Shown here piece after piece: positions 5,973 through 22,735 of a stretch of 64,000 nucleotides of DNA (position 1 is the first letter of the stretch; the number at the start of each line of letters is the position of its first letter). Made by a program: the position numbers and the translations under genes. The notes beneath the pieces were generated by a model. The model did no database searches. It was not told the origin of the DNA and worked only from the letters and a program-made list of their open reading frames with translations. This DNA is from Fibrobacter succinogenes (GTDB lineage: Bacteria; Fibrobacterota; Fibrobacteria; Fibrobacterales; Fibrobacteraceae): assembly GCA_902762795.1 (NCBI GenBank), contig CACWPM010000002.1:1-64000 (forward strand). The letters run 5' to 3'.

Positions 5973-6000
5973 TTGCGTTTTTTAAATTAAATCGTATATT
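5973..6000 (+). promoter_or_regulatory. Cassette 1 promoter and conserved box
   Basis: TTGCGT, 16 bases, TATATT: a sigma70-type promoter. The -35 lies inside GAAACTATTG, a box repeated at all four regulator promoters (8811, 15035, 17990). The position before AAACTATTG is G in cassettes 1 and 2 and A in cassettes 3 and 4. A plausible operator for the adjacent regulator; that role is inference. Confidence 0.75.
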
Positions 6001-6006
6001 TAATTT

Positions 6007-6051
6007 TAACAACGAACAGGACAAATAAAAAGCAGTTCGTTAGTTAGGAGG
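6007..6051 (+). promoter_or_regulatory. Cassette 1 leader hairpin ending at the SD
   Basis: TAACAACGAAC (6007-6017) pairs with GTTCGTTAGTTA (6035-6046) with one bulged base. The 3' arm runs directly into AGGAGG (6046-6051), 4 bases before the regulator ATG, so the stem and ribosome binding would compete. The other three cassettes have a related stem in the same place. Confidence 0.6.
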
Positions 6052-6055
6052 AAAA

Positions 6056-6889
6056 ATGAAAGAAATATTGGAATATACGAGCTATCGTCAGTATATTGCA
6101 GATTACTATGCCGATAAAAAGGCTAAATCTGCGTTTACTTGGCAGGAGTTTGCAGACGAGGCTGGTTTTTCTTCGCGTGTTTATCTGAAATACGTGAGCG
6201 AAGGCCGCTTTAGTTTGAGTGAAACGGCGACTGTCCGCGTGGCCGATGCCATGCGCCTGGTCGATTACGAACGCGAATATTTCACCGAAATGGTCCAGTT
6301 TGACCATGCAAAAACGGATGCCGAAAAGAAGGCCGCTTTTAACAAGATGCTTGCGATTGCAGACGCACACAAGGCGAAAATCGTGGAAGGCGATGCGTTC
6401 CGCTATTTCGAAAGCTGGAAAAATCCGGTACTTCGTGAACTCGCGCCTTCGATGCCGGGGGCAAAGCCGCTTGCGCTAGCCCATGCTTGCCGCCCCGAAA
6501 TTACCGCCGCCGAGGTGACCGAATCGCTGAACTTCCTTATTAAGGCGGGATTCCTGAAAAAAGATGAAGAAGGCCGTTACATACAAACGGATAAATTCAT
6601 AACGACAGGGCCTTTGGATGTAACGCCTGTGGCTGTCCGCGGAATGCACCGGCAGATGGGTGAATTGGCGCTGGAAACCATCGAAGGCGTTGCTCAAGAT
6701 GAACGCCATTTTTCGGGCCTCACGATGGGGCTTACGCATAAAGCGTACGAAGAAATCGTTCAAGAAATTGACGCATGCCGCAAACGCATTGCCGCAATTG
6801 CGACAAGGGATTCTGAAATCGATGATGTGTATCGTTTGAATATGCAGCTTTTCCCAATCACAAAAAAGAATTCTAATAAAAATGCCTAG
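6056..6889 (+). CDS. TIGR02147/DUF4423 regulator, cassette 1
   Basis: Probable cytoplasmic DNA-binding regulator of the family first listed as Fibrobacter paralogous family TIGR02147. 277 residues. It opens with KEILEYTSYRQYIADYY, then a helix-turn-helix-like stretch at about residues 22-60 (TWQEFADEAGFSSRVYLKYV), an acidic/lysine-rich helical region (HAKTDAEKKAAF), and a conserved C-terminal half with ELAPSMPGAKPLALA, TTGP and MHRQMGELAL. AGGAGG lies at ideal spacing. The stop TAG forms the start of the TAGGAGG SD of the lipoprotein gene, so the two are translationally coupled. Close relatives at 8906, 15125 and 18083; most like 8906. Target genes are unknown; autoregulation is inferred from the shared promoter box. 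Confidence 0.88.
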   Translation: MKEILEYTSYRQYIADYYADKKAKSAFTWQEFADEAGFSSRVYLKYVSEGRFSLSETATVRVADAMRLVDYEREYFTEMVQFDHAKTDAEKKAAFNKMLAIADAHKAKIVEGDAFRYFESWKNPVLRELAPSMPGAKPLALAHACRPEITAAEVTESLNFLIKAGFLKKDEEGRYIQTDKFITTGPLDVTPVAVRGMHRQMGELALETIEGVAQDERHFSGLTMGLTHKAYEEIVQEIDACRKRIAAIATRDSEIDDVYRLNMQLFPITKKNSNKNA

Positions 6890-6898
6890 GAGGAAACT

Positions 6899-8608
6899 AT
6901 GAATTACTCGAAAATAAAATTGCAGCTTGTCTGCAATATGGTGATGCTGTTTGCCTTTGTATTTGCGGCGTGTTCTGACGATCACGTTTCTGGTGGCGTT
7001 ACCGAAGAGACTCGTATTTATGCGTTGGCGGGGCGAGCCGGCGACATTTTGCCAAAGCTGGCGAAACAGGCAAATTCTGAAAAGCCGGCCAACTTTATGC
7101 TTGCCGCAAAAGGAACTATCGTAACTGTTCACGAACTAGATGTCCAGACGCTCGCTGCAACAGGTCGAATTTTCGTGGACACAATTGACAACGACGAGGG
7201 ACGCTTTGAATTTAAGGATCTTTCCTTGAGTAGCCCGTATGTGCTGGTTGAAACACAGGATCAGTACGATTCCGTCTACGTACTGGCCGACAGTACCTTC
7301 ACCACCCTTAGGCCCATTACTGCATATCGCGAATCCTTCAAGGCCGTTGCTGATTTACGGAAAAGAGAACTAGTCAGCCTTAATACGCTAACGAGCGGCA
7401 AGGCTCCCATTCTGTTGAAGTATGTCAACGAAGGAAAAACTTTTGACGAAGCGAACCGATTAGCGGAGCAGTCGTACCTTGAAAATCTTGGAATCTATGA
7501 AGATTTGGGCCCCTTCGAAGATATATTTGACGATACCTCTGAACTCGCATTTGTAATAGAATTTCAGAAAGAACTTATTTATAGCACCTTTGCGATTCAT
7601 TTGGAATTCGGAGTTGTTTTCTCATCACCCAAAAGAATCTCTGCAATAGGCGTCGATGCGGAAGAATATTATTCGAATACAATGAAAATAATAAATTATA
7701 AGGTCGGCTATTACGCCCATAGAGATAGTTTAGGACAATGTACCGAATCTAGGGAAAATGAGCCACGAATCATTTCGATTAAAGATGTGGACAACGTCGA
7801 AAAACAGTATCCAGTAGTATGCCGTTCTGGAAAATGGATTTTCGGGTACAAATCCATAGAGCATACAAAAGGAACTCTCGTAGACAATCGTGACGGCAAA
7901 ACCTACAAGACGGTTACATACGAATGGGACTCTGTCTCGCAAACCTGGATGGCCGAAGATCTTGATTTTAAAGACAGCGTTCTTTTGGGTAGTATGCAAT
8001 GTGCAAACGGTACAGATTCCTGTTCTCGTAACGAAGATAACGCTTTCTCGTCAGTGCCATTTGACTCCGCGTATGGACCTGCCTATTGGTGGCAGGCGGC
8101 CATGAACATTGAAATTGATAGCATATATGAAAAGGTCTCCGTCGAAATAGACTCCTCTATGGGCAAATTGAATGTAATTTCGCATAACGATTATGAGGTT
8201 CACGTACCACAATCAAAGCTGAGCAATACTCAAGGCTTATGTCCAGACGGATGGAGGATTCCTACTTGGAACGATTGGGAAACGCTGCTAAAAAATATTG
8301 GGACCTTGAAGGGGACCGAATATGATAGCATGTCGCTTGCTCTTTACGACGAAACGGCTACGGGATTTGGTTTGAATACCTTTGGCTCTGAATTAGACAG
8401 CATTATGGTGGCTTTCACGCTGAAATATACTTCACCCGACGAATCAGGTCCAAACCATTATCTAAATCCCTTGTCAAACATTGGTGGGCGGTTTAAACAA
8501 GCCATGATTGTAGCTGATACATCCATGTTTACGATTGAATTGCCCTTCCCCACTCCCCAAAAGGGAAACCCAACTTCAGTGGGGGCTGTCCGCTGCATCA
8601 AAAACTAA
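6899..8608 (+). CDS. FISUMP lipoprotein, cassette 1
   Basis: Predicted surface or outer-membrane lipoprotein of unknown function. Signal peptide with lipobox VFAAC (Cys25). Residues about 71-117 resemble a carboxypeptidase-regulatory-like beta domain (VHELDVQTL, DEGRFEF, SSPYVLVE). A helical middle region contains NLGIYEDLGPFE. A Cys-containing stretch follows (LGQCTESRENE, VVCRSGKW). The FISUMP domain runs from about 325 (NRDGKTYKTVTY, TWMAEDL) through LCPDGWRIPTWNDW to the terminal VRCIKN. GGAGGAAACTATG gives a strong start 9 bases after the regulator stop. The gene looks richer in A+T than its regulator. Related to the lipoproteins at 9751, 15968, 18926 and 20796. Confidence 0.88.
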   Translation: MNYSKIKLQLVCNMVMLFAFVFAACSDDHVSGGVTEETRIYALAGRAGDILPKLAKQANSEKPANFMLAAKGTIVTVHELDVQTLAATGRIFVDTIDNDEGRFEFKDLSLSSPYVLVETQDQYDSVYVLADSTFTTLRPITAYRESFKAVADLRKRELVSLNTLTSGKAPILLKYVNEGKTFDEANRLAEQSYLENLGIYEDLGPFEDIFDDTSELAFVIEFQKELIYSTFAIHLEFGVVFSSPKRISAIGVDAEEYYSNTMKIINYKVGYYAHRDSLGQCTESRENEPRIISIKDVDNVEKQYPVVCRSGKWIFGYKSIEHTKGTLVDNRDGKTYKTVTYEWDSVSQTWMAEDLDFKDSVLLGSMQCANGTDSCSRNEDNAFSSVPFDSAYGPAYWWQAAMNIEIDSIYEKVSVEIDSSMGKLNVISHNDYEVHVPQSKLSNTQGLCPDGWRIPTWNDWETLLKNIGTLKGTEYDSMSLALYDETATGFGLNTFGSELDSIMVAFTLKYTSPDESGPNHYLNPLSNIGGRFKQAMIVADTSMFTIELPFPTPQKGNPTSVGAVRCIKN

Positions 8609-8636
8609 ACTGTTTAAAACCGCAAAAAAATTATTT

Positions 8637-8651
8637 GTTAGGAGGAAAAGG
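8637..8651 (+). other. Orphan SD-like box after lipoprotein 1
   Basis: GTTAGGAGGAAAAGG is a perfect SD context copied from the cassette leaders, but no start codon or gene follows. It abuts the terminator. Equivalent boxes stand at 11598, 17849, 22675 and 22691. Confidence 0.7.
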
Positions 8652-8652
8652 G

Positions 8653-8683
8653 AGGCGGACTTCGGTCCGTCTTTCTTTTTTTT
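8653..8683 (+). terminator. Cassette 1 terminator
   Basis: GGCGGAC pairs with GTCCGTC around a TTCG tetraloop (one G-U) and is followed by a T-rich tract. The same C(TTCG)G hairpin type ends cassette 3 and the run after lipoprotein 5. Confidence 0.85.
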
Positions 8684-8820
8684 CATTTTCTGACCAACTT
8701 GGCAAAGCTTTTTTACTATTGCAATATGTTGTTTGTATTATAAAAAATCGCTATTTTTTTTATAATGTGTATAAATTGGCTAATTTAAGCAAAAATATTA
8801 ATATTTTTATGATGAAACTA

Positions 8821-8848
8821 TTGACTTTTTAAAAATTAAGTATATATT
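8821..8848 (+). promoter_or_regulatory. Cassette 2 promoter and conserved box
   Basis: TTGACT, 16 bases, TATATT. It overlaps GATGAAACTATTGACT, the cassette box in its G variant as in cassette 1. DNA between the cassette 1 terminator and this promoter is AT-rich with no other signal I can name. Confidence 0.8.
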
Positions 8849-8855
8849 TGAACTT

Positions 8856-8900
8856 GCGAATGGCTCGAATCACAAAATCAAGACGCCGTTCGCTAGGAGG
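8856..8900 (+). promoter_or_regulatory. Cassette 2 leader hairpin ending at the SD
   Basis: GCGAATGGC (8856-8864) pairs with GCCGTTCGC (8885-8893), nine pairs with one G-U. The 3' arm ends one base before AGGAGG (8895-8900). The 5' arm differs from cassette 1 yet still pairs, which supports a selected structure. Confidence 0.65.
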
Positions 8901-8905
8901 AAACT

Positions 8906-9736
8906 ATGAAAGATGTACTAGAATACACGAACTATCGCCAGTACATCGCGGACTATTACGCCGAGAAAAAGGCCAAATCCGCATTCACTTGGCAGGAGTT
9001 CACGCGAGCGGCGGGTTTTTCATCGCCTGTTCACCTTAAGTACGCAAGCGAAGGCCGGATCAACTTGAGTGATACCGCCGCGAAGCGCGTGGCCCAGACA
9101 ATGCACCTTGTTGATTTCGAGCAGGATTATTTTTGCGAAATGGTCAAGCTCGACAATGCAAAGACCGATGCCGAGAAAAAGGCCGCCTTCAACAAAATGA
9201 TTGCGATTGCGGGCGCCCACAAGACAAAAATCTTGGAAGGCGATGCGTTCCGCTTTTTCGAAAGCTGGAAAAACCCTGTCATCCGTGAATTGGCTCCTTC
9301 GATGCCTGGAGCAAAGCCTCTTGCGCTTGCCCGTGCATGCCGCCCGGAAATTACCGCCGCCGAAGTCAGCGATGTGCTGAATTTCCTCGTCAAAGGCGGA
9401 TTTCTTGAGAAAAACGACGAAGGCAATTACGTACAAACGGAAAAATCCTTGACGACGGGGCCGATGGGCGTGACGCCGGTGGCTGTTCGCGCGATGCACC
9501 GCCAAATGGGCGAACTTGCGCTCGAAACGATTGAAGGTGTCGCTCAGGACAAACGACATTTCTCGGGTGTCACGTTTGGCATCACGAAGGACGGCTATGA
9601 TGAAATCGTGCAAGAAATTGCCGATTGCCGTAAAAGAGTTATCGCCATTGCCCGGAAAAATGCTGCCACGGACGAAGTCTATCGTCTGAACATACAGCTT
9701 TTCCCTTTAACAAAAAAACAGGAATTGAAAAAATAG
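8906..9736 (+). CDS. TIGR02147/DUF4423 regulator, cassette 2
   Basis: 276-residue paralogue of the cassette 1 regulator, same domain order and probable role. The helix-turn-helix-like segment differs at key places (SSPVHLKYASEGRINLS against SSRVYLKYVSEGRFSLS in cassette 1), so DNA specificity may differ. C-terminal markers LALETIEGVAQD and NIQLFPLTKK group it with the cassette 1 copy rather than with the cassette 3 and 4 copies. ATG follows AGGAGGAAACT. The stop TAG is followed by GGTAGGAGGAAACT, the SD of the next gene; here stop and SD are adjacent rather than overlapping. Confidence 0.88.
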   Translation: MKDVLEYTNYRQYIADYYAEKKAKSAFTWQEFTRAAGFSSPVHLKYASEGRINLSDTAAKRVAQTMHLVDFEQDYFCEMVKLDNAKTDAEKKAAFNKMIAIAGAHKTKILEGDAFRFFESWKNPVIRELAPSMPGAKPLALARACRPEITAAEVSDVLNFLVKGGFLEKNDEGNYVQTEKSLTTGPMGVTPVAVRAMHRQMGELALETIEGVAQDKRHFSGVTFGITKDGYDEIVQEIADCRKRVIAIARKNAATDEVYRLNIQLFPLTKKQELKK

Positions 9737-9750
9737 GGTAGGAGGAAACT

Positions 9751-11571
9751 ATGAATTACTTAAAATTTAGCAGAACGTTTGTCTGCCAATTGGCAATGTT
9801 ACTCGCCTTTGTGTTTACTGCGTGCTCGGAAAACAATGACGTTGCCGGAGGCACTGTCGAAGAAACGGGGGTTTATGCCTTGTCTGGACGCGTGGGCCAT
9901 GTTGCTAAAATGAGTGTCATGCTGGATTCTTTGAATTCCTCGAATTCTCCGAAAGTCTTATCTGTAAAGCCGGGTACTGTTGTTAGGGTTCGTGAACTGG
10001 ATTCGGTTTCGTTGGATACGACGGGACGTGTTTTTGTCGATACGATTTCGGATAGTAACGGCCATTTTGGTTTTGAAAATCTCTTGCTCAATAGCCCGTA
10101 TGTTCGGATAAGTGTACTTAATCCAGATAGCTCGTTTTTTTGCCAGCCATGGGGTTCTCCTTTTGATGGTAGCGAAAGTTGCGCTGATAGTCTTACAAGT
10201 ACTTATGTTCCTGAGTTGACTGCAATTGTGGATTTACGAGTATCTGAAAATATTGAGGTAAATGTTTTGACGCTTATGAAAGCCCCTGTTTTGCGGAGTT
10301 ATGTGGCTGCCGGAATGCCTTTTGCTGAGGCGGGGAAAAGGGCTGAACGTGATATACTTGAACGTCATGGAATATATAAGGAGTTTGGACCTTTTGAAAC
10401 GCCGCAAAGTGAGTGTGATGATGAGTTTATTCGTGTTAAGGAGTTTATATCTACCGTTCATGAAGATGTGATTATGTACTATATGGGTGACACCAGTGCT
10501 ATTCTTTGGGCATTTGAAGATTATATTATTTCCTATGCGCGTATTCCTCGTGCAGCTTTTTCTTCAAGTGAAGAGAATGAATCTTTGTATGAAAAAAATG
10601 TGTCGTATTTGAAATTGGAAACGGGCTTTATTGCTGAGTATCAAGGATTGGGACAATGTACGGATTCGCGTGAAGGAGAATCGACCTCCTATAAAGAATA
10701 TTATGAACTTGTTTGCCATTCTAGAAAATGGGAAATGCGATATAGAGGAATTGAATTTACGAGCGGAACCATGGTCGACAATCGTGATGGAAAATCTTAT
10801 AAAACGGTAACGTACAATATTGATGGTAAACCGCAAACTTGGATGGCGGAAAATCTGAATTTTGATGAATCTGATTTGCATGAAGGTACAGGTTGCCTTG
10901 CTGGCGATGAATTTACGTGCGAAGTAAATGGCCGCTTGTATGAATGGCAGACTGCGATGAATATGGATAGAAACTCGATGAAGGTGTTCCTTGCTCTTCC
11001 TGAGAGTGATACGGTTTTCTTGGATGATAAGTGTAAATCTATGATTGAAGATTTAAATAAGTGCTATACGATTGAAACTTCTAATTGCGAAGAAAAGCGT
11101 AGGGAAAGCGAAAAATATTGCAAATCTCTTTATCCCGAAGGTTTATTGACGTATGTTGGCGAAGGCGATGCATATTGGAAATGGAATTATGCGGATTATT
11201 TGTCCCAGTCTAATGTAATGAATTATCAAGGCGTATGTCCTGATGGATGGCGTCTCCCGAATCAAAAGGATTGGGGCTCTTTATATGAGTATGTTACAAG
11301 TCAGGGGGTGACTATTGCTGCGCTTGCTGATGAAGTGGCTACGGGCTTTAATATGAAAAACTGGTTTTTGATAAGAGACGATGAAAATTGGTTAAATAAT
11401 CAACCACGTTATGTGGCAGTTCCTGATATTGAAAATGGGTTTGGTCAATTGGGATATTCTTCGTTTGACGGTTTGCGTGATTGTTATGTGAAGGCAAATG
11501 GCGAATGTCGTATGCTCTATCGCTATGACTTTGCTTCGGGATTTTATTCAGTCCGTTGTATCAAAAATTAA
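9751..11571 (+). CDS. FISUMP lipoprotein, cassette 2
   Basis: 606 residues. Predicted lipoprotein with lipobox VFTAC (Cys25) and a signal peptide closely like that of lipoprotein 1 (MNY start, AFVF before the lipobox). It has the beta domain (RELDSVSLDTTGRVFVDTI), the helical middle (RHGIYKEFGPFE), the Cys pair LGQCTDSREGE and LVCHSRKW, and a FISUMP domain from about 338 (NRDGKSYKTVTY, TWMAENLNF, CEVNGRLYEWQTAM, GVCPDGWRLPNQ, VRCIKN). An insert near 410-465 with many Cys and Lys/Glu residues is absent from lipoprotein 1. Function unknown. The terminal orphan SD and terminator follow directly. Confidence 0.88.
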   Translation: MNYLKFSRTFVCQLAMLLAFVFTACSENNDVAGGTVEETGVYALSGRVGHVAKMSVMLDSLNSSNSPKVLSVKPGTVVRVRELDSVSLDTTGRVFVDTISDSNGHFGFENLLLNSPYVRISVLNPDSSFFCQPWGSPFDGSESCADSLTSTYVPELTAIVDLRVSENIEVNVLTLMKAPVLRSYVAAGMPFAEAGKRAERDILERHGIYKEFGPFETPQSECDDEFIRVKEFISTVHEDVIMYYMGDTSAILWAFEDYIISYARIPRAAFSSSEENESLYEKNVSYLKLETGFIAEYQGLGQCTDSREGESTSYKEYYELVCHSRKWEMRYRGIEFTSGTMVDNRDGKSYKTVTYNIDGKPQTWMAENLNFDESDLHEGTGCLAGDEFTCEVNGRLYEWQTAMNMDRNSMKVFLALPESDTVFLDDKCKSMIEDLNKCYTIETSNCEEKRRESEKYCKSLYPEGLLTYVGEGDAYWKWNYADYLSQSNVMNYQGVCPDGWRLPNQKDWGSLYEYVTSQGVTIAALADEVATGFNMKNWFLIRDDENWLNNQPRYVAVPDIENGFGQLGYSSFDGLRDCYVKANGECRMLYRYDFASGFYSVRCIKN

Positions 11572-11597
11572 TCGCTCTGACGTGTTTGGAATGTTTC

Positions 11598-11610
11598 GTT
11601 AGGAGGATGG
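11598..11610 (+). other. Orphan SD-like box after lipoprotein 2
   Basis: GTTAGGAGGATGG: the leader-type SD box again. Here an ATG overlaps it and opens a six-codon frame that stops with TAG inside the terminator loop. It could be a vestige, a decoy or a micro-ORF. Confidence 0.6.
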
Positions 11611-11642
11611 GGGTCGCGACTTTTTAGCCGCGACCCTTTTTT
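11611..11642 (+). terminator. Cassette 2 terminator
   Basis: GGGTCGCG pairs perfectly with CGCGACCC and six T follow. It faces the 3' end of the GH10 gene, about 107 bases away. Confidence 0.88.
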
Positions 11643-11748
11643 GTGCAAATAAAAAAATGCTAGTTATACTGATGGCGTATTTTTGTATATATAAATAACG
11701 GTTATTTTTTTGTGTGTAAATGAATATGAATTTTGAATAAATGTAATT

Positions 11749-13176
11749 CTATTTAATGACGGCCCGCTGCATGTAGCTTGCTGAACCTGCGTGAACTCGT
11801 GCAACGTATAGACCTTCTGTGATATTTTTTAAATCAACGGAACCGTTTTCGCACTTGGCGCTAAATACGGGTCGGCCTTGCATGTCGAATAATTCTACTG
11901 TGGAGGGCTTTGCGCTTGTGCCTGTAATAAAGAGCGTGCGTCCGGCGAGGTGTATGGTGAACTTCTGCAAGCCTCTCAATTTTGCGATGGCGTTGCTTGT
12001 GTCCTTGGCTGTCGTGTCTGTTACTGTTGTGTCACGGACTGTCGTATCGTTTGCCGTCGTGTCCTTTGCGAACGTGTAAGGCGTTTTCACTTCGGCTGCC
12101 GGGTGCGATTTGAGGCTAACCATGATGCTATCGAATGCGGGCTTAGGCTTGTATTGTTTGTCGTAGAGGAGCCCTTCTGTCTTGCCTTGCTGTTCGTCCA
12201 GCCAGCTGTGCGCATCGGTCAATCCCCAGATGACAAATTCACCCATGTTCGGTTCCTCGAGGAAAACGTCCATGAATTGACGGTAGAGGTGCCCTTGCTT
12301 GGCGTAGTCGGCGGCTCCGAGTTTACCGGCTGACCCCTTCGGGAATCCGATGTCGAGTTCGGTGATGTTCAGCGTGACGCCCAGTTCGGCAAGAGCCTTC
12401 GCGAAATCGCGAACGTTCTGCGGCGTCGTTTCGTGCGCAATTTCGATGTGTGTCTGCGTGCCCACGCAAGTGATGGGAATACCGTTTTTCTTCCAACGTT
12501 TGACTTGTTCTACAACAAAGCTAGCCTTGGATTTTTCGCGCATCCCCCATTCGAGGGAATAGTCGTTGTAGCAGAGTTCTGCCTTGGGGTCGATTGCATG
12601 CGTCCACACGAAAGCGGAGTCCAGGAACTCGGCGCCGATGCCCTCGTACCATACGGAACCTTGACTACGCCAACCTGCGTTATACTCGTCGTTCACGGCT
12701 TCATTTACAACGTCCCATTCGGCGACTTTGCCTTTCCAGTGCCCGACAACGCTATCGATGTGGTTCTTGAGCACTTTGAGCAGTTTCTCTTTTTGGCCTT
12801 TGTAGTCGTTCACCCAACCTGGAACTTGGCTATGCCATGCAAGAGCATGACCGCGCACGCGTATGTTGTTCGCTTGCGCATATGCAATCATCTTGTCGCC
12901 TTTGGTGTAGTTGAATACGTTCTCTTTCGGCTCGGTTGCGTCGAATTTCATTTCGTTTTCGGCAACGACTACATTGAATTGTGTCTTATGAATTTCTTCG
13001 AATTCCGGTTCGATGTTGTCGTTGAACCATTCGCTGTTCAAGATAGTACCGATAAAGCGTCCGCGTTCTTCAGCCAAAGAACGGATTGTCTCGTCTGCGG
13101 CGAAGGCGCTTGTGAACCCGGCGCCAATGAAAGATGTGCTGGCCAAGATTCCGAACAGCGAACTTATAAATCTCAT
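11749..13176 (-). CDS. Secreted GH10 endo-beta-1,4-xylanase with C-terminal sorting-like domain
   Basis: Cleaves xylan backbones outside the cell. A signal peptide ends at about AFAAD. The GH10 barrel has the substrate motif GHALAWHSQVPGW, the acid/base Glu in WDVVNEAVND near residue 157 and the nucleophile Glu in ITELDIGF near 272. A linker made of repeated DTT-type units follows (about 370-392). The last 70 residues (FITGTSAKPSTVELFDMQG, GLYVARV) resemble type IX secretion sorting domains. The gene lies convergent to cassette 2, and separates cassettes 2 and 3 together with the GSCFA gene. The family call is secure; the secretion route is inference. Confidence 0.94.
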   Translation of the reverse strand: MRFISSLFGILASTSFIGAGFTSAFAADETIRSLAEERGRFIGTILNSEWFNDNIEPEFEEIHKTQFNVVVAENEMKFDATEPKENVFNYTKGDKMIAYAQANNIRVRGHALAWHSQVPGWVNDYKGQKEKLLKVLKNHIDSVVGHWKGKVAEWDVVNEAVNDEYNAGWRSQGSVWYEGIGAEFLDSAFVWTHAIDPKAELCYNDYSLEWGMREKSKASFVVEQVKRWKKNGIPITCVGTQTHIEIAHETTPQNVRDFAKALAELGVTLNITELDIGFPKGSAGKLGAADYAKQGHLYRQFMDVFLEEPNMGEFVIWGLTDAHSWLDEQQGKTEGLLYDKQYKPKPAFDSIMVSLKSHPAAEVKTPYTFAKDTTANDTTVRDTTVTDTTAKDTSNAIAKLRGLQKFTIHLAGRTLFITGTSAKPSTVELFDMQGRPVFSAKCENGSVDLKNITEGLYVARVHAGSASYMQRAVIK

Positions 13177-13261
13177 GAATTACCTCTTGTGTTGGTGCTC
13201 GTAAAAATAAGCTTAAAAGCCGTGAATGTCGTGGTTGGGAGGGAAAATTCGTTGTAATGGT

Positions 13262-14479: not shown

Positions 14480-14530
14480 GGTATAGAATGTAGTATAGTA
14501 TAAAAACGAAAATTTTCAAAAATTTCGATA

Positions 14531-14857: not shown

Positions 14858-14866
14858 TCTCCAATT

Positions 14867-14940: not shown

Positions 14941-15042
14941 TTCTTATATATTTTAATATATTGTAGAAATAGCGAAATTTTTAATTCTTTATAGAAATGC
15001 TTTAAATTTTACAAAAAATAAATAAAATATATTGTAAAACTA

Positions 15043-15071
15043 TTGATTTTTCAAAAATGAGATACTATATT
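15043..15071 (+). promoter_or_regulatory. Cassette 3 promoter and conserved box
   Basis: TTGATT, 17 bases, TATATT. It overlaps TTGTAAAACTATTGA, the A variant of the cassette box shared exactly with cassette 4. Confidence 0.8.
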
Positions 15072-15081
15072 TAAAAACAAG

Positions 15082-15120
15082 AACGAACGACCCGTCATGA
15101 AGAGGTCGCTTGTTAGGAGG
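15082..15120 (+). promoter_or_regulatory. Cassette 3 leader hairpin ending at the SD
   Basis: AACGAACGACC (15082-15092) pairs with GGTCGCTTGTT (15104-15114): ten of eleven positions, one being G-U, around an 11-base loop. AGGAGG (15115-15120) follows at once. Confidence 0.65.
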
Positions 15121-15124
15121 AAAA

Positions 15125-15958: not shown

Positions 15959-15967
15959 GAGGAAATT

Positions 15968-17803
15968 ATGAATTTCAACAAAATTACTTTGGCTGCGTTG
16001 ACGGCGCTCCTTTTTGCGGCCTGCTCCGACGAAAATAAACCGTTTGGTGCTCTTGGCGGCGCCGAAGAAGAACAGGGCGTTTATGCCTTGGCTGGACGAG
16101 TCGGCGATGTGTACCCGAGATTGATGGATGTGTCGAGTGACGGGCCGGTTGTTTCTTTGGGTCATGAAAATTCTTCTTTTGCCGTGAAAGGATCGGTTAT
16201 AACGATATCTGAATTGGATTCTTTGACGCTTCAGAAAACAGGACGTTTTGTTGTAGATACGATTGGTAATGACGAAGGAAAATTTGAATTTCCTGACTTT
16301 ACTTTGGAAAGCCCTTATGCTATGATTGAAATACGGGACACGTGTACTGTTTGGGAATGTCGTCAACGTGGCGTGTGGGAGTCCTTGTCGTATCCGGCTT
16401 GGCAATATGATTCCACGAAAAAAGAGTATGTAGATGATACCACCATGTATTCTGTTCCTTGGAGAACTATTGTTGATGTCCGGGAATACCAAAATGCGAC
16501 AATGAGCATCAATACGTTGACGAACTTGAAAGTTCCCCTTCTGCAAAAATATTTTGCTGAGGGCATGACGTTTGTTGCGGCGAACAAAAAAGCGGAACAG
16601 GAAGTTCTTGAAGGGTTTGGAATTTATCAAGACTTGGGACCTTTCGAAAAAGTAGAAAATGAAAATAGCGAGTTGTCGATTGTATTGCTGTTTATTTCTC
16701 ATATTGTAAATGTGGGTATTGTTTTTGATGATATCCTTCCGAAGAATATCTATCAATATTTTGGTATCCCGCTGGCTGCGGTTGCCGCGTTGGGAGATTC
16801 TGTGGAGCAGCAGTATTCAAATACGATAAAGATGATAGAATATGATGTTGGCTATTATGCGCATGTACATGGTTTTGGCCAATGCACAGAATCCCGTGAA
16901 AATGAAACTTTTAATATTGGAGGGCTTTATAACACTTCGATTGTTTGCCGTTCAAATAAATGGGTGCCGGGAAGTAAGAAGGTCGAATACGTTAGTGGAA
17001 TTATGGTCGATGAACGCGATGGAAAAATATACAAGACCGTTACGTATAATTGGGGTGATGTCACGCAAACTTGGATGGCGCAAAATCTGAATTATGTGGA
17101 TACGACGTCTTCTGGCGGCGATAGCTCCGCGAAAAATAATTTGCTTGGAAATACGAGATGCTGGGAGGGGGATTCTTCGTGCGAAGCGTTTGGTCGCTAT
17201 TACAGATGGGTTGCAGCGATGGATTTAGATTGGGCTTCTGCTAATGTTACCTGTTCTGTAAGTCATATTGTGCCTGATGAAGAAAATGATCGTTATGTGG
17301 ATAGTTCTGAAATTGTAACGGTGGAAGAAATGTGCTTGATTGCTAAAACCGGCGATCCTGACAGTAAATATGGCTATTGCTCTAGCAAATATGGCAGCGA
17401 ATGCGGTTTTGATTATACGGTATTGAATTCTCAGTCGGGAACGGTGGCTCATCAAGGCGTATGTCCAGAAGGATGGAGAATGCCTAATGAAAGCGATTGG
17501 ACTATTTTGTATGAAAATATGTCTAGTCGGGGGGCGTCACTTAAAGATGCTTATGAAAGTGGCTTTGGTTATCAAGAAGCGATGACGTTAAAGCTTGATG
17601 ATAGGGATCCTCGTGTAATACGGACTTTGAATAGAGAACATTTTAACAGCAAATTTGTCTCGATTCCAGACTTTGATAAATCAGAATACCTGTATCTTTT
17701 CTACAGGATTGCGGAAAATGTGCAAGTTGCTTCTGGAACCGTTGGCAAAATGCTTTTTAATGCCCTTGGCGAAGAAGGCAACGTCCGCTGTATCAAGAAC
17801 TGA
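15968..17803 (+). CDS. FISUMP lipoprotein, cassette 3
   Basis: 611 residues. Lipobox LFAAC (Cys19) after a short signal peptide starting MNFNKI, like lipoprotein 4. Beta domain with SELDSLTLQKTGRFVVDTI and ESPYAMIEI, then a Cys-bearing loop (CTVWECRQRG) not seen in lipoprotein 1. Middle region EGFGIYQDLGPFE, Cys pair GFGQCTESRENE and IVCRSNKW, and a FISUMP domain from about 344 (ERDGKIYKTVTY, TWMAQNLNY, CEAFGRYYRWVAAMD, GVCPEGWRMPNES, VRCIKN). Probably exported and membrane-anchored; its role is unknown, with fibre adhesion only a guess from the habitat. Confidence 0.88.
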   Translation: MNFNKITLAALTALLFAACSDENKPFGALGGAEEEQGVYALAGRVGDVYPRLMDVSSDGPVVSLGHENSSFAVKGSVITISELDSLTLQKTGRFVVDTIGNDEGKFEFPDFTLESPYAMIEIRDTCTVWECRQRGVWESLSYPAWQYDSTKKEYVDDTTMYSVPWRTIVDVREYQNATMSINTLTNLKVPLLQKYFAEGMTFVAANKKAEQEVLEGFGIYQDLGPFEKVENENSELSIVLLFISHIVNVGIVFDDILPKNIYQYFGIPLAAVAALGDSVEQQYSNTIKMIEYDVGYYAHVHGFGQCTESRENETFNIGGLYNTSIVCRSNKWVPGSKKVEYVSGIMVDERDGKIYKTVTYNWGDVTQTWMAQNLNYVDTTSSGGDSSAKNNLLGNTRCWEGDSSCEAFGRYYRWVAAMDLDWASANVTCSVSHIVPDEENDRYVDSSEIVTVEEMCLIAKTGDPDSKYGYCSSKYGSECGFDYTVLNSQSGTVAHQGVCPEGWRMPNESDWTILYENMSSRGASLKDAYESGFGYQEAMTLKLDDRDPRVIRTLNREHFNSKFVSIPDFDKSEYLYLFYRIAENVQVASGTVGKMLFNALGEEGNVRCIKN

Positions 17804-17848
17804 TTCTTCGGGTTTGTATGGAGTAATCCCTTTAGGGAATAGTAAAGG

Positions 17849-17863
17849 GTTAGGAGGAAAAGG
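17849..17863 (+). other. Orphan SD-like box after lipoprotein 3
   Basis: GTTAGGAGGAAAAGG, identical over 15 bases to the box at 8637, with no gene after it. A small ATCCCTTTAGGGAAT inverted repeat lies just upstream (17826-17840). Confidence 0.7.
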
Positions 17864-17865
17864 AA

Positions 17866-17890
17866 GACGGGCTTCGGCCCGCCTTTCTTA
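17866..17890 (+). terminator. Cassette 3 terminator
   Basis: CGGGC pairs with GCCCG around TTCG, with further pairing beyond an A-C mismatch, then TTTCTT. Same design as the terminators at 8653 and 22706. Confidence 0.75.
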
Positions 17891-17995
17891 TTTTCGCTTA
17901 TTTTATATATATTGTCGAAATTAAGCGAAATTTCTAAAAATTTTATAAAATCTTTGAAATTTAAAAAAAAACAATAAATTTTTATTGTAAAACTA

Positions 17996-18024
17996 TTGAC
18001 TTTTTGAAATTTTAAGTTTATATT
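17996..18024 (+). promoter_or_regulatory. Cassette 4 promoter and conserved box
   Basis: TTGACT, 17 bases, TATATT, inside ATTGTAAAACTATTGACT. This is the A variant of the box, as in cassette 3, and the closest to consensus of the four. Confidence 0.82.
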
Positions 18025-18034
18025 GTATTTCGTA

Positions 18035-18078
18035 CAACGGCATGAACGTACAAAGTCGAGATGCTGTTCGTTGGGAGG
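18035..18078 (+). promoter_or_regulatory. Cassette 4 leader, weaker hairpin ending at the SD
   Basis: CAACG (18035-18039) plus AAC (18045-18047) can pair with GTTCGTTG (18066-18073) across a bulge. GCAT/ATGC is an alternative inner pairing. GGGAGG follows. The structure is less regular than in the other leaders. Confidence 0.45.
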
Positions 18079-18082
18079 AAAA

Positions 18083-18916
18083 ATGAAAGACGTGTTAGAA
18101 TACACGAGCTACCGCCAGTACATCGCGGATTATTATGCCGAAAAAAAAGCCAAGTCTGCGTTTACTTGGCAGGAATTTACGCGGGCTGCGGGTTTTTCAT
18201 CTCCGGTCTATCTTAAATATGTGAGTGAAGGCCGCTTCAATCTGAGTGAAGATGCTATGGTCCGAGTCGCTTCCGCGATGGGCCTCGTAAATTACGAACA
18301 GGAATATTTTTGCGAAATGGTCAGGTTTGACCATGCAAAAACGGATGCTGAAAAAAAGGCGTTTTTTAGCAAAATGCTGTCGATGGCCGATGCGCACAAG
18401 GCTAAAATCCTGGAAGGGGATTCTTTCCGTTATTTTGACAGCTGGAAAAATCCGGTGCTCCGAGAACTTGCTCCCGCGATGCCCGGTGCAAAGCCCTTGG
18501 CGCTTGCCAAAGCCTGCCGTCCAGAAATTACGGCTGCCGAAGTCAGTGAATCACTGGCTTTCCTTATCAAGGCGAACTTGCTGCAAAAAGACGAAAACGG
18601 AAATTACGTGCAAACTGAAAAATCCGTGACGACAGGGCCGATGGATGTGACTCCTGTGGCTGTCCGCGGGATGCATCGCCAGATGGGCGAGTTCGCGCTT
18701 GACGCTATCGAGGGCGTTCCCCAAGATAAACGACATTTTTCGGGCCTTACGCTTGGAATCACTCGCAAGGCGTACGAGGAAATTGTCCAAAAAATCGCCG
18801 CCTTCCGCAAAGAAATCATTGCCATTGCGACGCGTGAAGCTACAACGGATGAAGTCTATCGCCTGAATGTGCAGTTTTTCCCGATGACGAACAAGTGCGA
18901 TGGCAAAAAAGGTTAG
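18083..18916 (+). CDS. TIGR02147/DUF4423 regulator, cassette 4
   Basis: 277-residue paralogue, nearest to the cassette 3 copy, with the same recognition-like segment SSPVYLKYVSEGRFNLSED. The N-terminal half (EYTSYRQYIADYYAEKKAKSA) is also nearly the same as in cassette 2, which suggests exchange between copies. The ATG at 18083 follows GGGAGGAAAA; an upstream in-frame extension to 18023 would read through the promoter and leader and is not credible. The stop TAG again opens the TAGGAGG SD of the next gene. It probably controls the longest unit here: two lipoproteins and a small membrane peptide. Confidence 0.88.
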   Translation: MKDVLEYTSYRQYIADYYAEKKAKSAFTWQEFTRAAGFSSPVYLKYVSEGRFNLSEDAMVRVASAMGLVNYEQEYFCEMVRFDHAKTDAEKKAFFSKMLSMADAHKAKILEGDSFRYFDSWKNPVLRELAPAMPGAKPLALAKACRPEITAAEVSESLAFLIKANLLQKDENGNYVQTEKSVTTGPMDVTPVAVRGMHRQMGEFALDAIEGVPQDKRHFSGLTLGITRKAYEEIVQKIAAFRKEIIAIATREATTDEVYRLNVQFFPMTNKCDGKKG

Positions 18917-18925
18917 GAGGCGATT

Positions 18926-20641
18926 ATGAATTTCAATAAAATTATTCTGTTTGTCTCAATTCTTTTTGCCTTGACGTTTGTGGCGTGTTCGGATGTCGAT
19001 ACTTCGGGAGGCTCCACGGAAGAAACGGACGTGTATGCCTATGCTAGGCTGGCGGGGCATATCATGCTTGTTTCTTACGAGCAGTCTACGGATTCGGTGC
19101 TGATTTCGAGTACGCTTTGGAAAGGGTTCATGGTGAGGATGACCGAGCTGGATCCCGTGACTCTCGATACGACGGAAAATGTCTATTACAGTTCACTTAC
19201 GGATTCCTCGGGAATGTTCTCGTTCGACAGTGTTACGTTGAAAAGCCCCTATGTCATGTTGGAATTGTCTCCTTTAGGCGACGTGAATTGGTGGACTCAG
19301 GGAGAGGAATGGGATTGGTTTTATCGGTACCAGCCCAAACCCGTCCCGTATCGTGCGATTGTTGATTTGCGTGAAGTCAAGGATGTTTCTATCAACGTGA
19401 TGAGTTCCCTGGAAGCTTATCGCCTGCTCTATTTGGTGAGGCAAGGGATGAATTTCGATGCTGCCAAGCGGCAGGCCGACCGCGATGTGATGGATGCGTT
19501 CGGTTTTTATGACGCGCCGTTCTATTATGGAGGGCCTGTTAATTTCTTGAACGATGACGATATTGATGCCGTATATTTTGTAAGTATTTTTACAAGTATT
19601 TTTACCGCGTCCTCTGACAAGTGTATTAATTTGCAGGCGGTTGACGTTTTTGCAGTGAAGGGGTCTTTCGTCGACATCTCTGATTCTGCCAAGCAGGCTT
19701 GTAAAGAAGTCATGGGTCCTGCGCTTTGGTATGGGCGTGATGGTACGCTCGATGAAGAAAGTAAAATGTACGGCAATTTCCTTTCGAGTCTCTATGGGCT
19801 GGGCAAGTGCACGGATGAAAAGGAAGGAGATTCGTTGGAAATTGAATTTTTGGGTCCTGAATTGACCCTCAAGGTGAAATGCGAGTCAGGAGACTGGAAG
19901 CCGTCGGCTTTCCGGACGGTGCAGGAAGAAATTGAACGCTCGGAGGGAACCATGACCGACGAGCGCGACGGAAAGACGTACAAGACGGTCACCTATACCT
20001 TCAATGGGATAACCCAGACGTGGATGGCGGAGAACCTGACTTATAGTAATGAAACTATAACACCTGTTCTCGACAGCGCTGCCATTGAATTCTTAAAGTC
20101 GAGACTGGAATTTATGGCTACCCATGACCTCACCTGTAACATTGATGATGGTTGGCTCTGTACACTTGATTCGACATATTGGAATTCTTATGTCGAGTAC
20201 AAATGGTTCGAAGCGATGGGGCTGGATTCTTCCTCGGTGTCAATGGATAGCGGCATGGTTGACTTGGATATGATCGTTATCATGGTAGATTCTGTCGAAA
20301 AAACGAAGGGGTATTACCAGGGGCTGTGCCCGGATGGATGGAGACTTCCCAAAGTAGATGATTGGCAACAGTTGTTTAAGCAAGCCTACAGGTCTCAGGG
20401 AGGCCTCGTCGAAGGGAAAAGGGGGAACTGGGTAACGGGATCGTATTATTTGCCGTCAATCGGTTTCGGACCCATGACTACGGAAGATTTCGTCATCCGC
20501 TTGGAAAACTCGGATGGTGATCCTGATTTTGGGACGCAGTTATACGGCTGTAGGTTTTCTTATAACTTAAAATATGTCTGGGATAAGACTACGATGTTGG
20601 ATATGAACACGAGAATGTCTGTCCGCTGCATCAAGAATTAG
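18926..20641 (+). CDS. FISUMP lipoprotein, cassette 4
   Basis: 571 residues, lipobox TFVAC (Cys21). More diverged than the other copies: the beta domain (TELDPVTLDTTENVYY, KSPYVMLEL) is followed by a Trp-rich loop, and the middle region replaces the GIY-DLGPFE motif with AFGFYDAPFYYGG. The Cys-bearing stretch LGKCTDEKEGD remains. The FISUMP domain runs from about 340 (ERDGKTYKTVTY, TWMAENLTY, YKWFEAMG, GLCPDGWRLPKVDDW, VRCIKN). SD is TAGGAGGCGATTATG. No terminator follows; GTTTGGAGG comes 3 bases after the stop and serves the small gene at 20659. Confidence 0.86.
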   Translation: MNFNKIILFVSILFALTFVACSDVDTSGGSTEETDVYAYARLAGHIMLVSYEQSTDSVLISSTLWKGFMVRMTELDPVTLDTTENVYYSSLTDSSGMFSFDSVTLKSPYVMLELSPLGDVNWWTQGEEWDWFYRYQPKPVPYRAIVDLREVKDVSINVMSSLEAYRLLYLVRQGMNFDAAKRQADRDVMDAFGFYDAPFYYGGPVNFLNDDDIDAVYFVSIFTSIFTASSDKCINLQAVDVFAVKGSFVDISDSAKQACKEVMGPALWYGRDGTLDEESKMYGNFLSSLYGLGKCTDEKEGDSLEIEFLGPELTLKVKCESGDWKPSAFRTVQEEIERSEGTMTDERDGKTYKTVTYTFNGITQTWMAENLTYSNETITPVLDSAAIEFLKSRLEFMATHDLTCNIDDGWLCTLDSTYWNSYVEYKWFEAMGLDSSSVSMDSGMVDLDMIVIMVDSVEKTKGYYQGLCPDGWRLPKVDDWQQLFKQAYRSQGGLVEGKRGNWVTGSYYLPSIGFGPMTTEDFVIRLENSDGDPDFGTQLYGCRFSYNLKYVWDKTTMLDMNTRMSVRCIKN

Positions 20642-20658
20642 AACGTTTGGAGGATTGT

Positions 20659-20808
20659 ATGGATTCTAGAAAAATGATCGTGATTCAGGTGGCAATTTCC
20701 TTGATTGTAGTTTGTTCTTACTATGTGGCTGGAGTTACGATGGACGGAAACGTTATCCAAAAATTGCAAGGGCTGAATGAAATGTGGGGATTGGTATGGA
20801 TTGCTTAA
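20659..20808 (+). CDS. Small single-pass membrane peptide (49 aa)
   Basis: Open frame of 49 codons starting with MDSRKMIVIQVAISLIV: a basic N-terminus, one hydrophobic helix at about residues 6-26, then a short soluble tail rich in Asn, Gln and Leu. GTTTGGAGG with 7-base spacing gives it one of the better SD sequences in the region. It begins 17 bases after the stop of lipoprotein 4 and overlaps the start of lipoprotein 5 by 13 bases in another frame, so translation of lipoprotein 5 is probably coupled to it. No family recognised. It could be a leader-type coupler or a functional small protein. Confidence 0.6.
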   Translation: MDSRKMIVIQVAISLIVVCSYYVAGVTMDGNVIQKLQGLNEMWGLVWIA

Positions 20809-22646
20809 AGATTGCCTTAGTCGCATGGATGACAATCGCATTTTCGGCATGTTCTGTCGAAGCTCCAGGATCGGTTTCGGGAGGTTCCTCGGAAGAATCA
20901 GACGTTTATGCATTGGCCGGGCAGGCGGGAAACCTTTCTCCTCGCTTGTTGAAATTGAAAGATCAAATTGAAGTTGAAAATCAGTTTTCTGTTAAGAAAG
21001 GAAGCATTGTAAAACTGATTGAACTGGATTCCGTTTCGTTTACCATAACGGAGCGTTATTTTGTCGATACTGTTTTTAATGACGAAGGAAATTTTGCCTT
21101 TAATAATCTTTCGCTCAGTAGTCCGTACGTGTTGGTCTTTGTGCTGGATTCCTGTTATCGCGAAGATTGCAGTGAAAATGGAATCTTATACGATTACACA
21201 AATCGAATTCGCGATAAGGAAGATAGTGCCAAGTATTCAAGAATGTTGAGTGCGGTTGTGGACTTGCGCGAATTCAAATCAAAAAGTATTAGCGTGAATG
21301 TGCTGACCGATCTCAAGGTGCCCATACTGTTGGAACTTGTCGCATCGGGAATCCCTTTTGCTACAGCGAATACGCAGGCAGAAAAACAGGTGCTTGAAAG
21401 TTATGGCGTTTATGAAGATTTGAGCTGCTTTGAATGCCTGGATGATGCAAACTCGGAACTTGCTTTTGTAAGGCAACTGGTGCAAGAGTATTATACTTTG
21501 AACCCGAATGCCTTGTATAATATGAATGAATTGAAATTGACGATTGAAGCTTATTGGAATACAGCTCCAGACATATTTGCCTTTGATGGGAAAAAAATGG
21601 AAACCCTGTATAGGAATTCAAAAAAGATGTTGGAATACAAGCTGGGTTATTGGGCGCATCGCTTGGGTTACGGACCATGTACGGATCAAAATGAAGGTGA
21701 AACGTTTATCCTTGGTATTTCGGGCGATGATGAATCGAGTGCTTTGTGTCGTTCCGGTAAATGGTTGCCTGGACATAAAAAAATGGACTTTGTGCGTGAT
21801 TCCATAGTCGATCGTCGCGATGGGAAATCGTACAAAACGGTGACTTATAAAATTGGTGGAATAACCCAGACGTGGATGGCCGATGATTTGAATTATACGG
21901 GTACTCTTTCTGCTACGGGAGATTCTCTAAAAACAGATTTACGAGAACACTCATCTTGTTATTACGAGAAAGATTCTTTATGTGAAGTCAGTAGCCGCGA
22001 GTATCGATGGGATGCAGCGATGAATCTTGACGAGAAATCGATAAGGTATCTCAGTGTGAAGCCGTTGGCCAGTGATACGACTTATTTACCGGAAATATGC
22101 GTGAATGCCCATATGATTATGGAGGAGCATCCCGTTTTCTGTGCGGGGCCCGGTGATGATTGCGTGGCGAACTTATGGAACCATGATTATGGTGGTGGAT
22201 ATTGCATAGATATTGTTGATTCAAATGGTGGAATTGACAATTGGACTTGGAATTATACGGAACTTATGCCCGAGTTCAAATCTGATTCATATCAAGGCAT
22301 TTGCCCTGAGGGCTGGCGCATCCCCAACAAGAGGGATTGGAAAACTCTTGTCCACTTTGTTATGGAAGAGTACGGTATTGATTCTTCCAGGGTAGGGACT
22401 ATTCTTGCCGATGATTATGCTTCTGGCTTTGGAATGAAAAATAATTTGTATGTTGCCGATATAGACAAAAATTGGATTTTTGTTAATTCTCTACACTCCT
22501 ATATTGCGGTTCCTGATTTTCAGATTGATCGTAATGCTGGAGCCAGTGGAGTTCAAATAAATGATCGTGATTATTATACTTACAGGTCCGCTGAAAATTA
22601 TAATTACGTCTTTTATCGATATGTTGTCCGTTGCATCAAAAGGTAA
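20796..22646 (+). CDS. FISUMP lipoprotein 5, without its own regulator
   Basis: 616 residues, lipobox FSAC with Cys19. I chose the ATG at 20796 because it puts a normal short signal peptide before the lipobox; a GTG at 20784 in the same frame adds only four residues. Beta domain IELDSVSFTITERYFVDTV and SSPYVLVFVL, middle region ESYGVYEDLSCFE (Cys replaces Gly/Pro), Cys pair GYGPCTDQNEGE and ALCRSGKW. FISUMP domain from about 336 (RRDGKSYKTVTY, TWMADDLNY, CEVSSREYRWDAAMN, GICPEGWRIPNKRDW, VRCIKR). It lacks a regulator and cassette promoter, so it is probably read from the cassette 4 promoter. Confidence 0.86.
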   Translation: MDCLKIALVAWMTIAFSACSVEAPGSVSGGSSEESDVYALAGQAGNLSPRLLKLKDQIEVENQFSVKKGSIVKLIELDSVSFTITERYFVDTVFNDEGNFAFNNLSLSSPYVLVFVLDSCYREDCSENGILYDYTNRIRDKEDSAKYSRMLSAVVDLREFKSKSISVNVLTDLKVPILLELVASGIPFATANTQAEKQVLESYGVYEDLSCFECLDDANSELAFVRQLVQEYYTLNPNALYNMNELKLTIEAYWNTAPDIFAFDGKKMETLYRNSKKMLEYKLGYWAHRLGYGPCTDQNEGETFILGISGDDESSALCRSGKWLPGHKKMDFVRDSIVDRRDGKSYKTVTYKIGGITQTWMADDLNYTGTLSATGDSLKTDLREHSSCYYEKDSLCEVSSREYRWDAAMNLDEKSIRYLSVKPLASDTTYLPEICVNAHMIMEEHPVFCAGPGDDCVANLWNHDYGGGYCIDIVDSNGGIDNWTWNYTELMPEFKSDSYQGICPEGWRIPNKRDWKTLVHFVMEEYGIDSSRVGTILADDYASGFGMKNNLYVADIDKNWIFVNSLHSYIAVPDFQIDRNAGASGVQINDRDYYTYRSAENYNYVFYRYVVRCIKR

Positions 22647-22674
22647 AATGTTCTAAATGATTTGTGGAAATTCC

Positions 22675-22705
22675 GTTAGGAGGAAAAAACGGTAGGAGGA
22701 AAAGG
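22675..22705 (+). other. Two orphan SD-like boxes after lipoprotein 5
   Basis: GTTAGGAGGAAAAAACGG (22675-22692) and GGTAGGAGGAAAAGG (22691-22705) follow each other with no gene between them. It looks like a duplicated version of the single box seen after the other lipoprotein genes. Confidence 0.7.
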
Positions 22706-22735
22706 GGAGACGGGCTTCGGTCCGTCTCCTTTTTT
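22706..22735 (+). terminator. Terminator of the cassette 4 / lipoprotein 5 unit
   Basis: GGAGACGGGC pairs with GTCCGTCTCC, ten pairs with one G-U, around TTCG, then six T. The strongest terminator in the window. Confidence 0.92.

Follow-up and report, generated by a model that had tools for sequence, protein, structure and literature searches.

Does each regulator in a tandem array of regulator and lipoprotein genes belong to the lipoprotein that follows it, the two being duplicated and expressed as a matched pair, or is the regulator part of a fixed expression site behind which the lipoprotein may change? The question arises from the first 64,000 nucleotides of contig CACWPM010000002.1 of Fibrobacter succinogenes (assembly GCA_902762795.1; here termed the window), in which four regulators of the TIGR02147 family and five lipoproteins carrying the FISUMP domain (TIGR02145) occupy the segment from 5.97 to 22.7 kb. 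The original prediction was of duplicated, matched cassettes, perhaps serving to switch among surface variants. We favor another reading, to which we assign a probability of roughly 0.7: the locus would be a surface-lipoprotein diversification island, composed of tandem, privately regulated cassettes whose ectodomains are swapped between constant ends. All of our results are comparative and were obtained from sequences and structural models; the genome behind the window is a draft of 3.93 Mb in 89 contigs (97% complete), and the loci of relatives are partly metagenome assembled.

Regulators and lipoproteins are not inherited as pairs

The composition of the array was as originally described. 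Regulators 1 to 4 score 296 to 312 bits against TIGR02147 (cutoff, 50 bits), over profile positions 1 to 272, and 105 to 112 bits against the Pfam family DUF4423 (cutoff, 30 bits), and the five lipoproteins score 65 to 90 bits against TIGR02145 (cutoff, 41.65 bits). The repeated order of parts, consisting of promoter, leader hairpin, regulator, Shine-Dalgarno sequence (SD), and lipoprotein, was likewise seen in all four regulator units.

The claim that regulators and lipoproteins form matched pairs did not survive comparison with 113 regulator-lipoprotein pairs from named relatives. Within the clade of the window, median identity is 74% for regulators and 29% for lipoproteins; nearest neighbors of the two genes are concordant in 13 of 86 cassettes, and the congruence of trees that had been put forward as a check on coinheritance therefore came out against it. 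Regulators that are 96 to 99% identical precede lipoproteins that are 33 to 46% identical, and, conversely, lipoproteins 95% identical are found behind regulators 75% identical. When regulators are at least 90% identical, the median lipoprotein identity is 44% in the window clade (n = 94), compared with 75 to 81% in two other cassette classes that served as a control. Where regulator DNA is 90 to 100% identical, lipoprotein identity is often no higher than 29 to 50%. Some discordance was also noted in a second class, the C18-type cassettes (L247-L276), which encode serine-rich lipoproteins: with regulators at least 90% identical, lipoproteins have a median identity of 73% and a 5th percentile of 28%. 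The kinship proposed within the window, of cassette 1 with 2 and of 3 with 4, was upheld only in part: among regulators, 3 and 4 rank first (78%), though 1 and 4 are 77% identical, and lipoproteins 3 and 4 share only 32% identity, the closest lipoproteins being 1 and 3 (42%). The signal peptides (MNY or MNF) do track the regulators, as had been observed, and are the sole part of the lipoprotein to do so in the window. What stands of the proposed duplication is a cassette built of repeated parts and its tandem amplification; coinheritance of whole cassettes is rejected on the distance and nearest-neighbor tests.

These results bear directly on the possibility that matched pairs, duplicated as whole cassettes, are expressed singly as a surface switch within the cell. 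Tandem arrays with the same order of parts everywhere, the weak correlation of regulator and lipoprotein distances, and the prospect that cassettes with different operator words (see below) would be separately switchable are all compatible with such a switch; the agreement of nearest neighbors in only 13 of 86 cassettes and the existence of identical regulators with different lipoproteins are not, and the elements by which a switch might operate were not found. No promoter-flanking inverted repeats indicative of invertible promoters were found in the array, its single candidate slippage tract is an A8 run inside regulator 4, and a genome-wide search with lipoprotein 3 returned full-body relatives only within the array (in a genome 97% complete), the other matches being short FISUMP or partial sequences. 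Phase variation was accordingly rejected, no elements for it having been seen, as was a silent archive of the kind that feeds vlsE, none being found in the genome. We regard the within-cell switch as unlikely.

Ectodomains are exchanged between constant ends

The favored reading, exchange of ectodomains, is based in part on where homology stops and resumes. In DNA comparisons of orthologous cassettes, homology covers the promoter, regulator, signal peptide, and GGxxEET linker, ends 58 to 90 nucleotides (interquartile range) past the codon for the lipid-bearing cysteine, and is absent for about 1.6 kb save for short patches. It returns about 20 nucleotides before the end of the lipoprotein gene, within the interval from -30 to -10 nucleotides in 33 of 39 cases, and then takes in the terminator and reaches the promoter of the following cassette. 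For 51 pairs of cassettes with regulator DNA at least 90% identical, DNA encoding the leader peptide is 88% identical and the body has a median identity of 47%. A mirror case is provided by the body of lipoprotein 2, which also occurs behind another regulator in L214: the bodies are 89.6% identical in DNA (from +222 to the end), and the regulators are 72.7% identical. Homology thus usually breaks just past the anchor linker and resumes shortly before the stop codon, and we conclude that the ectodomain is exchanged as a whole while both ends stay constant. An AlphaFold2 model of lipoprotein 3 (mean pLDDT, 86; only weak fold matches) places the 5' boundary at a disordered linker (residues 20 to 33) or at the first beta strand, which argues that the whole predicted head is exchanged. 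Promoter and leader stay with the regulator, as do, in most cases, the signal peptide and the anchor linker; the ectodomain does not. Exchange was detected between lineages only.

Two other explanations of the discordance were weighed. Selection might drive very rapid divergence of the lipoprotein bodies where they stand, with no exchange at all, and the finding that bodies at the same locus are distant homologues with short patches of 75 to 88% DNA identity would agree with this; rapid divergence would not, however, place bodies that are 76 to 95% identical behind regulators that are 66 to 79% identical, at other positions in the array, nor would it generate sharp boundaries that recur at the same place, and we consider it very improbable. 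Alternatively, drafts may have been joined wrongly at repeated regulator genes, a concern given that many of the relatives are metagenome assembled. The same pattern is present, with both flanks intact, in genomes of about 9 to 30 contigs with completeness of 99 to 100% and contigs of 0.26 to 2.3 Mb, and the boundaries lie beyond the regulator, in nonidentical sequence. Chimerism of metagenome-assembled genomes was rejected after this check of near-complete genomes, among which one pair of regulators is 100% identical in DNA and precedes lipoproteins that are 29% identical, while another pair has leader-peptide DNA 99% identical and bodies 44% identical. An assembly artifact is thus extremely improbable. 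In the first of these pairs the break falls at the start codon of the lipoprotein, indicating that the anchor is not always retained.

Candidate operator words and a recognition-helix residue

Private regulation of the cassettes is suggested by a word of about 11 bp at positions -15 to -4 relative to the -35 hexamer, which is repeated 69 to 74 bp upstream. At this spacing, 47 of 93 nonredundant promoters have a match of at least 10 of 12 positions; other 6-bp bins contain 0 to 8 promoters, and both neighboring bins contain none. The words vary between cassettes yet match within each cassette. A search of the 3.93 Mb for the word-pair pattern of cassettes 1, 3, and 4 returned three occurrences, exactly at their promoters, and a reversed control returned none. 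Mutual information alone is too laden with phylogeny to select specificity residues, and an explicit residue-word table was used instead: across 64 nonredundant regulators of the clade, the class of word follows residue 43, with tyrosine and TTGT together in 49/49 cases, phenylalanine and TC[AC] in 9/9, and histidine and TGAT in 6/6. Arginine or serine at residue 41 mostly accompanies G on the left side of the word, and phenylalanine 43 with TCA was found in two sequence backgrounds.

The TIGR02147 regulators carry a predicted DNA-binding fold. An AlphaFold2 model of regulator 4 (pLDDT, 78) resembles helix-turn-helix (HTH) domains of the Cro/HigA type (Z score up to 8.6) and also winged helices of the MarR, ArsR, and BlaI types (Z score about 6 to 6.7), scores that are moderate and speak to the fold only, and in this model residue 43 is the first residue of the recognition helix. 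Chance is an unlikely explanation, given the clean residue-word table, the recurrence of phenylalanine 43, the constant spacing, and a pattern unique in the genome, and we suggest that each regulator binds its own words and so directly and privately controls its own transcription. As to the sign of this control, an activator would be expected to have its proximal word where it is found here, and the near-consensus promoters would suit a repressor.

Several observations weigh against this reading or limit it. Some promoters show no clear pair of words, 46 of 93 lacking a 10/12 match. Phylogeny confounds the association of word and residue in part: certain residues beyond the HTH rank equally high, and phenylalanine 43 alone clearly recurs in a separate sequence background. 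Cassettes 3 and 4, which share proline 41, tyrosine 43, and phenylalanine 52 and one class of word, may for that reason cross-regulate. As to exchange itself, regulator and lipoprotein distances still correlate (rho, 0.54 overall and 0.28 in the window clade, above all permutations), from which it follows that exchange is frequent but not universal. Outside the genus, a two-word operator gave scattered hints and no spacing peak. A general palindrome at the distal operator was considered and rejected, as it holds in a subset only (15/76 versus 4/76 in the control); some distal words of other cassettes in the genome are palindromic, such as ATGCTACA-GTG-TGTAGCAT.

A partnership that extends through the phylum

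TIGR02147 is present in 157 of 168 genomes of Fibrobacterota and in 39 of 41 genera, at one to more than 50 copies. The genome of the window encodes about 38 members, and a lipoprotein gene, overlapping or at most 15 nucleotides away, lies behind every one for which downstream sequence is readable. An automatic lipobox test recognized a lipoprotein partner for 106 of 116 regulators (35/37 in this genome, 29/29 in the genus, and 42/50 in other genera), several of the 10 failures being detection failures or gene fragments. The succession of regulator and lipoprotein is therefore a phylum-wide rule in Fibrobacterota. The five lipoproteins of the window have a lipobox, assigned by pattern, the cysteine of which is invariant among 92 homologues. 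FISUMP was rejected as the defining feature of the partner because most regulator-linked lipoproteins, including most partners in this genome, lack it. They share instead a motif a few residues past the lipid-bearing cysteine, roughly G-[TG]-x-T-[ED]-x-x-N-x-[IL]-A, and a matrix of this motif trained on other genomes only tells the 30 linked lipoproteins of this genome from 88 unlinked ones with an area under the curve (AUC) of 0.91; the best-scoring unlinked lipoproteins are second genes of cassettes. In two genera of the same family (L115-L118), there is a single TIGR02147 gene each, and the downstream lipoproteins that were read share an AGG(G)TSEETN motif.

Such a motif might be what the regulator responds to. 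It is conceivable that the regulator senses the N terminus of the lipoprotein (signal peptide or anchor motif) and tunes expression to export, in which case exchange of the body would be neutral for regulation; the specificity of the motif for regulator-linked lipoproteins and its usual retention with the regulator upon body exchange are in keeping with this. Adjacency alone could explain such coinheritance, however, the motif may be a surface-sorting signal, and one pair with identical regulators had the signal peptide replaced too, so that we find a surveillance loop of this kind doubtful. Because RNPP-type regulators adjoin lipoprotein genes elsewhere, peptide sensing of that type, with the signal peptide as pheromone, was also considered; in the regulator model, which is of moderate confidence, a winged helix and further helices but no tetratricopeptide repeat array were seen, and the idea is retained only as part of the surveillance loop. 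Only tentatively do we entertain a wider formulation that embraces these elements, according to which TIGR02147 regulators and anchor-marked lipoproteins might form obligate units throughout the phylum, with private two-word operators read by residues 41, 43, 47, and 52 with little cross talk, the Fibrobacter subset constituting a head-exchange island and the regulator sensing the export or anchor segment.

Anatomy of the cassettes

All cassette features lie on the forward strand; regulators and lipoproteins were assigned by profile match and leader hairpins by a pairing test. Upstream of each regulator are a promoter of the TTGNNT/TATATT type, a leader hairpin of about 50 nucleotides, and an SD of the TAGGAGGAAA type; the lipoprotein gene begins 9 to 14 nucleotides behind the regulator in all four cassettes and has its own AGGAGG. 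In cassette 1, the distal operator word TTTGTATTGTGG (5883 to 5894) is a direct repeat, at 73 bp, of the proximal word TTTGTGTTGTGA (5956 to 5967), which stands immediately 5' of the -35 element. The promoter (5973 to 6002; -35 TTGCGT at 5973, -10 TATATT) was read from sequence and is followed by the leader (6008 to 6055; hairpin ACGAAC...GTTCGT, SD TAGGAGG), regulator 1 (6056 to 6889; TIGR02147/DUF4423; R41, Y43, F52), and lipoprotein 1 (6899 to 8608; FISUMP; lipobox FAAC by pattern, linker SGGVTEET). An orphan SD, TTAGGAGGAAAA, and a terminator hairpin end the cassette (8638 to 8685). Cassette 2 has the distal word TTTGTATTATAA (8732 to 8743; 9/12 match at 72 bp) and a proximal word of the TGAT class, TTTTTATGATGA (8804 to 8815; spacing scan and residue-word table), a promoter with TTGACT and TATATT (8821 to 8851), a leader hairpin GCGAATGGC...GCCGTTCGC and SD (8852 to 8905), regulator 2 (8906 to 9736; H43, A47, I52), lipoprotein 2 (9751 to 11571; FISUMP), and an orphan SD, CGTTAGGAGGA, with a terminator hairpin (11595 to 11640).

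In cassette 3, the distal and proximal words AATATATTGTAGA (14955 to 14967) and AATATATTGTAAA (15026 to 15038) were located by the spacing scan and genome-wide pattern; the promoter (15043 to 15072; TTGATT and TATATT), leader hairpin and SD (15077 to 15124), regulator 3 (15125 to 15958; P41, Y43, F52), lipoprotein 3 (15968 to 17803; FISUMP), and an orphan SD, TTAGGAGGAAAA, with terminator hairpin (17850 to 17895) follow. Cassette 4 comprises the distal word ATATATTGTCGA (17907 to 17918; 9/12 match at 73 bp), the proximal word TTTTTATTGTAA (17979 to 17990; spacing scan and genome-wide pattern), a promoter with TTGACT and TATATT (17996 to 18025), a leader hairpin and SD (18030 to 18082), regulator 4 (18083 to 18916; P41, Y43, F52), lipoprotein 4 (18926 to 20641; FISUMP), and a second lipoprotein, lipoprotein 5 (20796 to 22646; FISUMP), which has no regulator of its own; the order regulator, lipoprotein, lipoprotein is also found in relatives. 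A double orphan SD and terminator hairpin close the array (22676 to 22735). Between lipoproteins 4 and 5 (20660 to 20806) is a possible membrane-like open reading frame of about 48 residues that overlaps the start of lipoprotein 5.

The leader hairpin is supported by pairing specific to each cassette: the two ends of a leader match each other more closely than they match ends from other cassettes (17.4 versus 14.0 ± 0.4; best of 30 shuffles, 14.8). The hairpin leaves the SD unpaired; a role in mRNA stability or translation would be a guess. Elsewhere in the genome, 14 of 36 cassettes have a -10 box 6 to 8 nucleotides from the start codon, for example on contigs C30, C18, C7, and C26 (L046, L054, L055, and L060), a distance that suggests leaderless mRNAs. 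The orphan SD, TAGGAGGAAAA, about 30 nucleotides past the stop codon and ahead of the terminator, accompanies 83 of 120 array lipoproteins versus 9 of 767 other genes, and 72 of these orphan SDs have no start codon after them; in the window they lie at 8638, 11595, 17850, and 22676. Other regulator-linked lipoproteins in this genome do not show this trait.

A variable island at a fixed site

The array is flanked on the left by a DEAD-box helicase gene (4066 to 5679) and on the right by a GGGPS-like gene (22779 to 23534), both named by reading of the sequence. Within it but outside the cassettes, a GH10 xylanase gene (11749 to 13176; family likewise by reading, and syntenic in relatives) and a gene for a GSCFA family protein (13262 to 14479; profile match) occupy the opposite strand and divide the array into two and two cassettes, plus lipoprotein 5. 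The order of helicase, regulator-lipoprotein cassette, GH10/GSCFA, further regulator-lipoprotein cassettes, and GGGPS recurs in Fibrobacter, and the number of cassettes at the site varies from none (one genome) to four or five. The flanks are 87 to 99% (GGGPS) and 82 to 92% (helicase) identical across Fibrobacter, whereas GSCFA within the island is merely 48 to 72% identical, and it may, for this reason, be exchanged too. The locus is thus a variable surface-protein island at a fixed chromosomal site. Some relatives have two GH10 genes in the island, and others have none. The intergenic region before cassette 3 (14533 to 14850) contains eight TACGTA-centered repeats, and four similar clusters occur elsewhere in the sampled genome.

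Discussion

Each cassette opens with a constant 5' module, which runs from the two-word operator and promoter by way of the leader hairpin, the TIGR02147 regulator, and the SD to the signal peptide and anchor linker of the lipoprotein. A variable ectodomain comes next, made up of a beta domain, a helical domain, and the FISUMP domain, and the 3' end is again constant, with VRCIKN-stop, orphan SD, and terminator. In the mechanism that we propose, the regulator would bind its own word at two places before the gene that encodes it, adjacent to the -35 element and some seven turns of the helix farther upstream, and would thereby control its own cassette with little cross talk. The products of exchange are seen in the genomes compared; recombination between homologous sequences in the constant or similar ends, which we infer to be responsible, would swap the ectodomain and sometimes the whole lipoprotein gene, and the expression site would remain in place. 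The outcome would be a set of independently controlled expression sites with surface heads that can be changed between lineages. The lipoproteins are probably located at the outer surface, and their heads may bind ligands.

The surface lipoprotein VlsE of Borrelia burgdorferi also has constant ends and a variable body that is changed by recombination, although there a single site is fed by silent cassettes during infection (PMC2632889). Host-interacting lipoprotein loci of Lyme Borrelia resemble the Fibrobacter island in their diversification between lineages by recombination (PMC11389397). The Fibrobacter system differs from vlsE in having several sites that are predicted to be expressed, each with its own regulator, in the lack of any silent archive found, and in exchange between lineages only. 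To our knowledge, no private regulator, operator code, or tandem regulator-lipoprotein cassette occurs at the Lyme Borrelia loci. Autoregulated one-component systems with paired operators and DNA looping provide another parallel, as the words share a face of the helix, with about seven turns between them, ahead of the regulator's own promoter; here, in contrast, there are dozens of paralogues per genome, and the class of word follows one recognition-helix residue.

FISUMP (Fib_succ_major) may be an analogue of cohesin, according to an earlier proposal (PMC4704652); it resembles DUF1566 and has been found in proteins that diversity-generating retroelements target (PMC4159848). In all five lipoproteins of the window, it closes the exchanged body on the C-terminal side, and the variation seen in Fibrobacter, in distinction to that of the retroelement targets, takes the form of body exchange between constant ends. 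The window regulators are full-length members of the TIGR02147 "Fsuc_second" paralog family and of DUF4423. Our literature search, with subscription papers outside its scope, found no paper that names TIGR02147, and DUF4423 appeared in one table only, for the Bdellovibrio protein Bd3700 (PMC12546842). Since the family is named solely as a paralog family or domain of unknown function, there appears to be no earlier description of its lipoprotein partner, of the two-word operator, or of the relation between residue and word.

TIGR02147 and FISUMP are among the largest families of rumen fiber degraders, and neither has an established function. With a word in a fixed place, an associated residue, and a private target, the regulator family becomes a testable system, and genera with a single TIGR02147 gene (L115-L118) could be simple models for the function of the pair. 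Near-orthogonal sets of regulators and operators may serve as parts for gene circuits. For Fibrobacter itself, the exchange of heads between lineages could matter for the binding of substrates, the host range of phages, or competition in the rumen.

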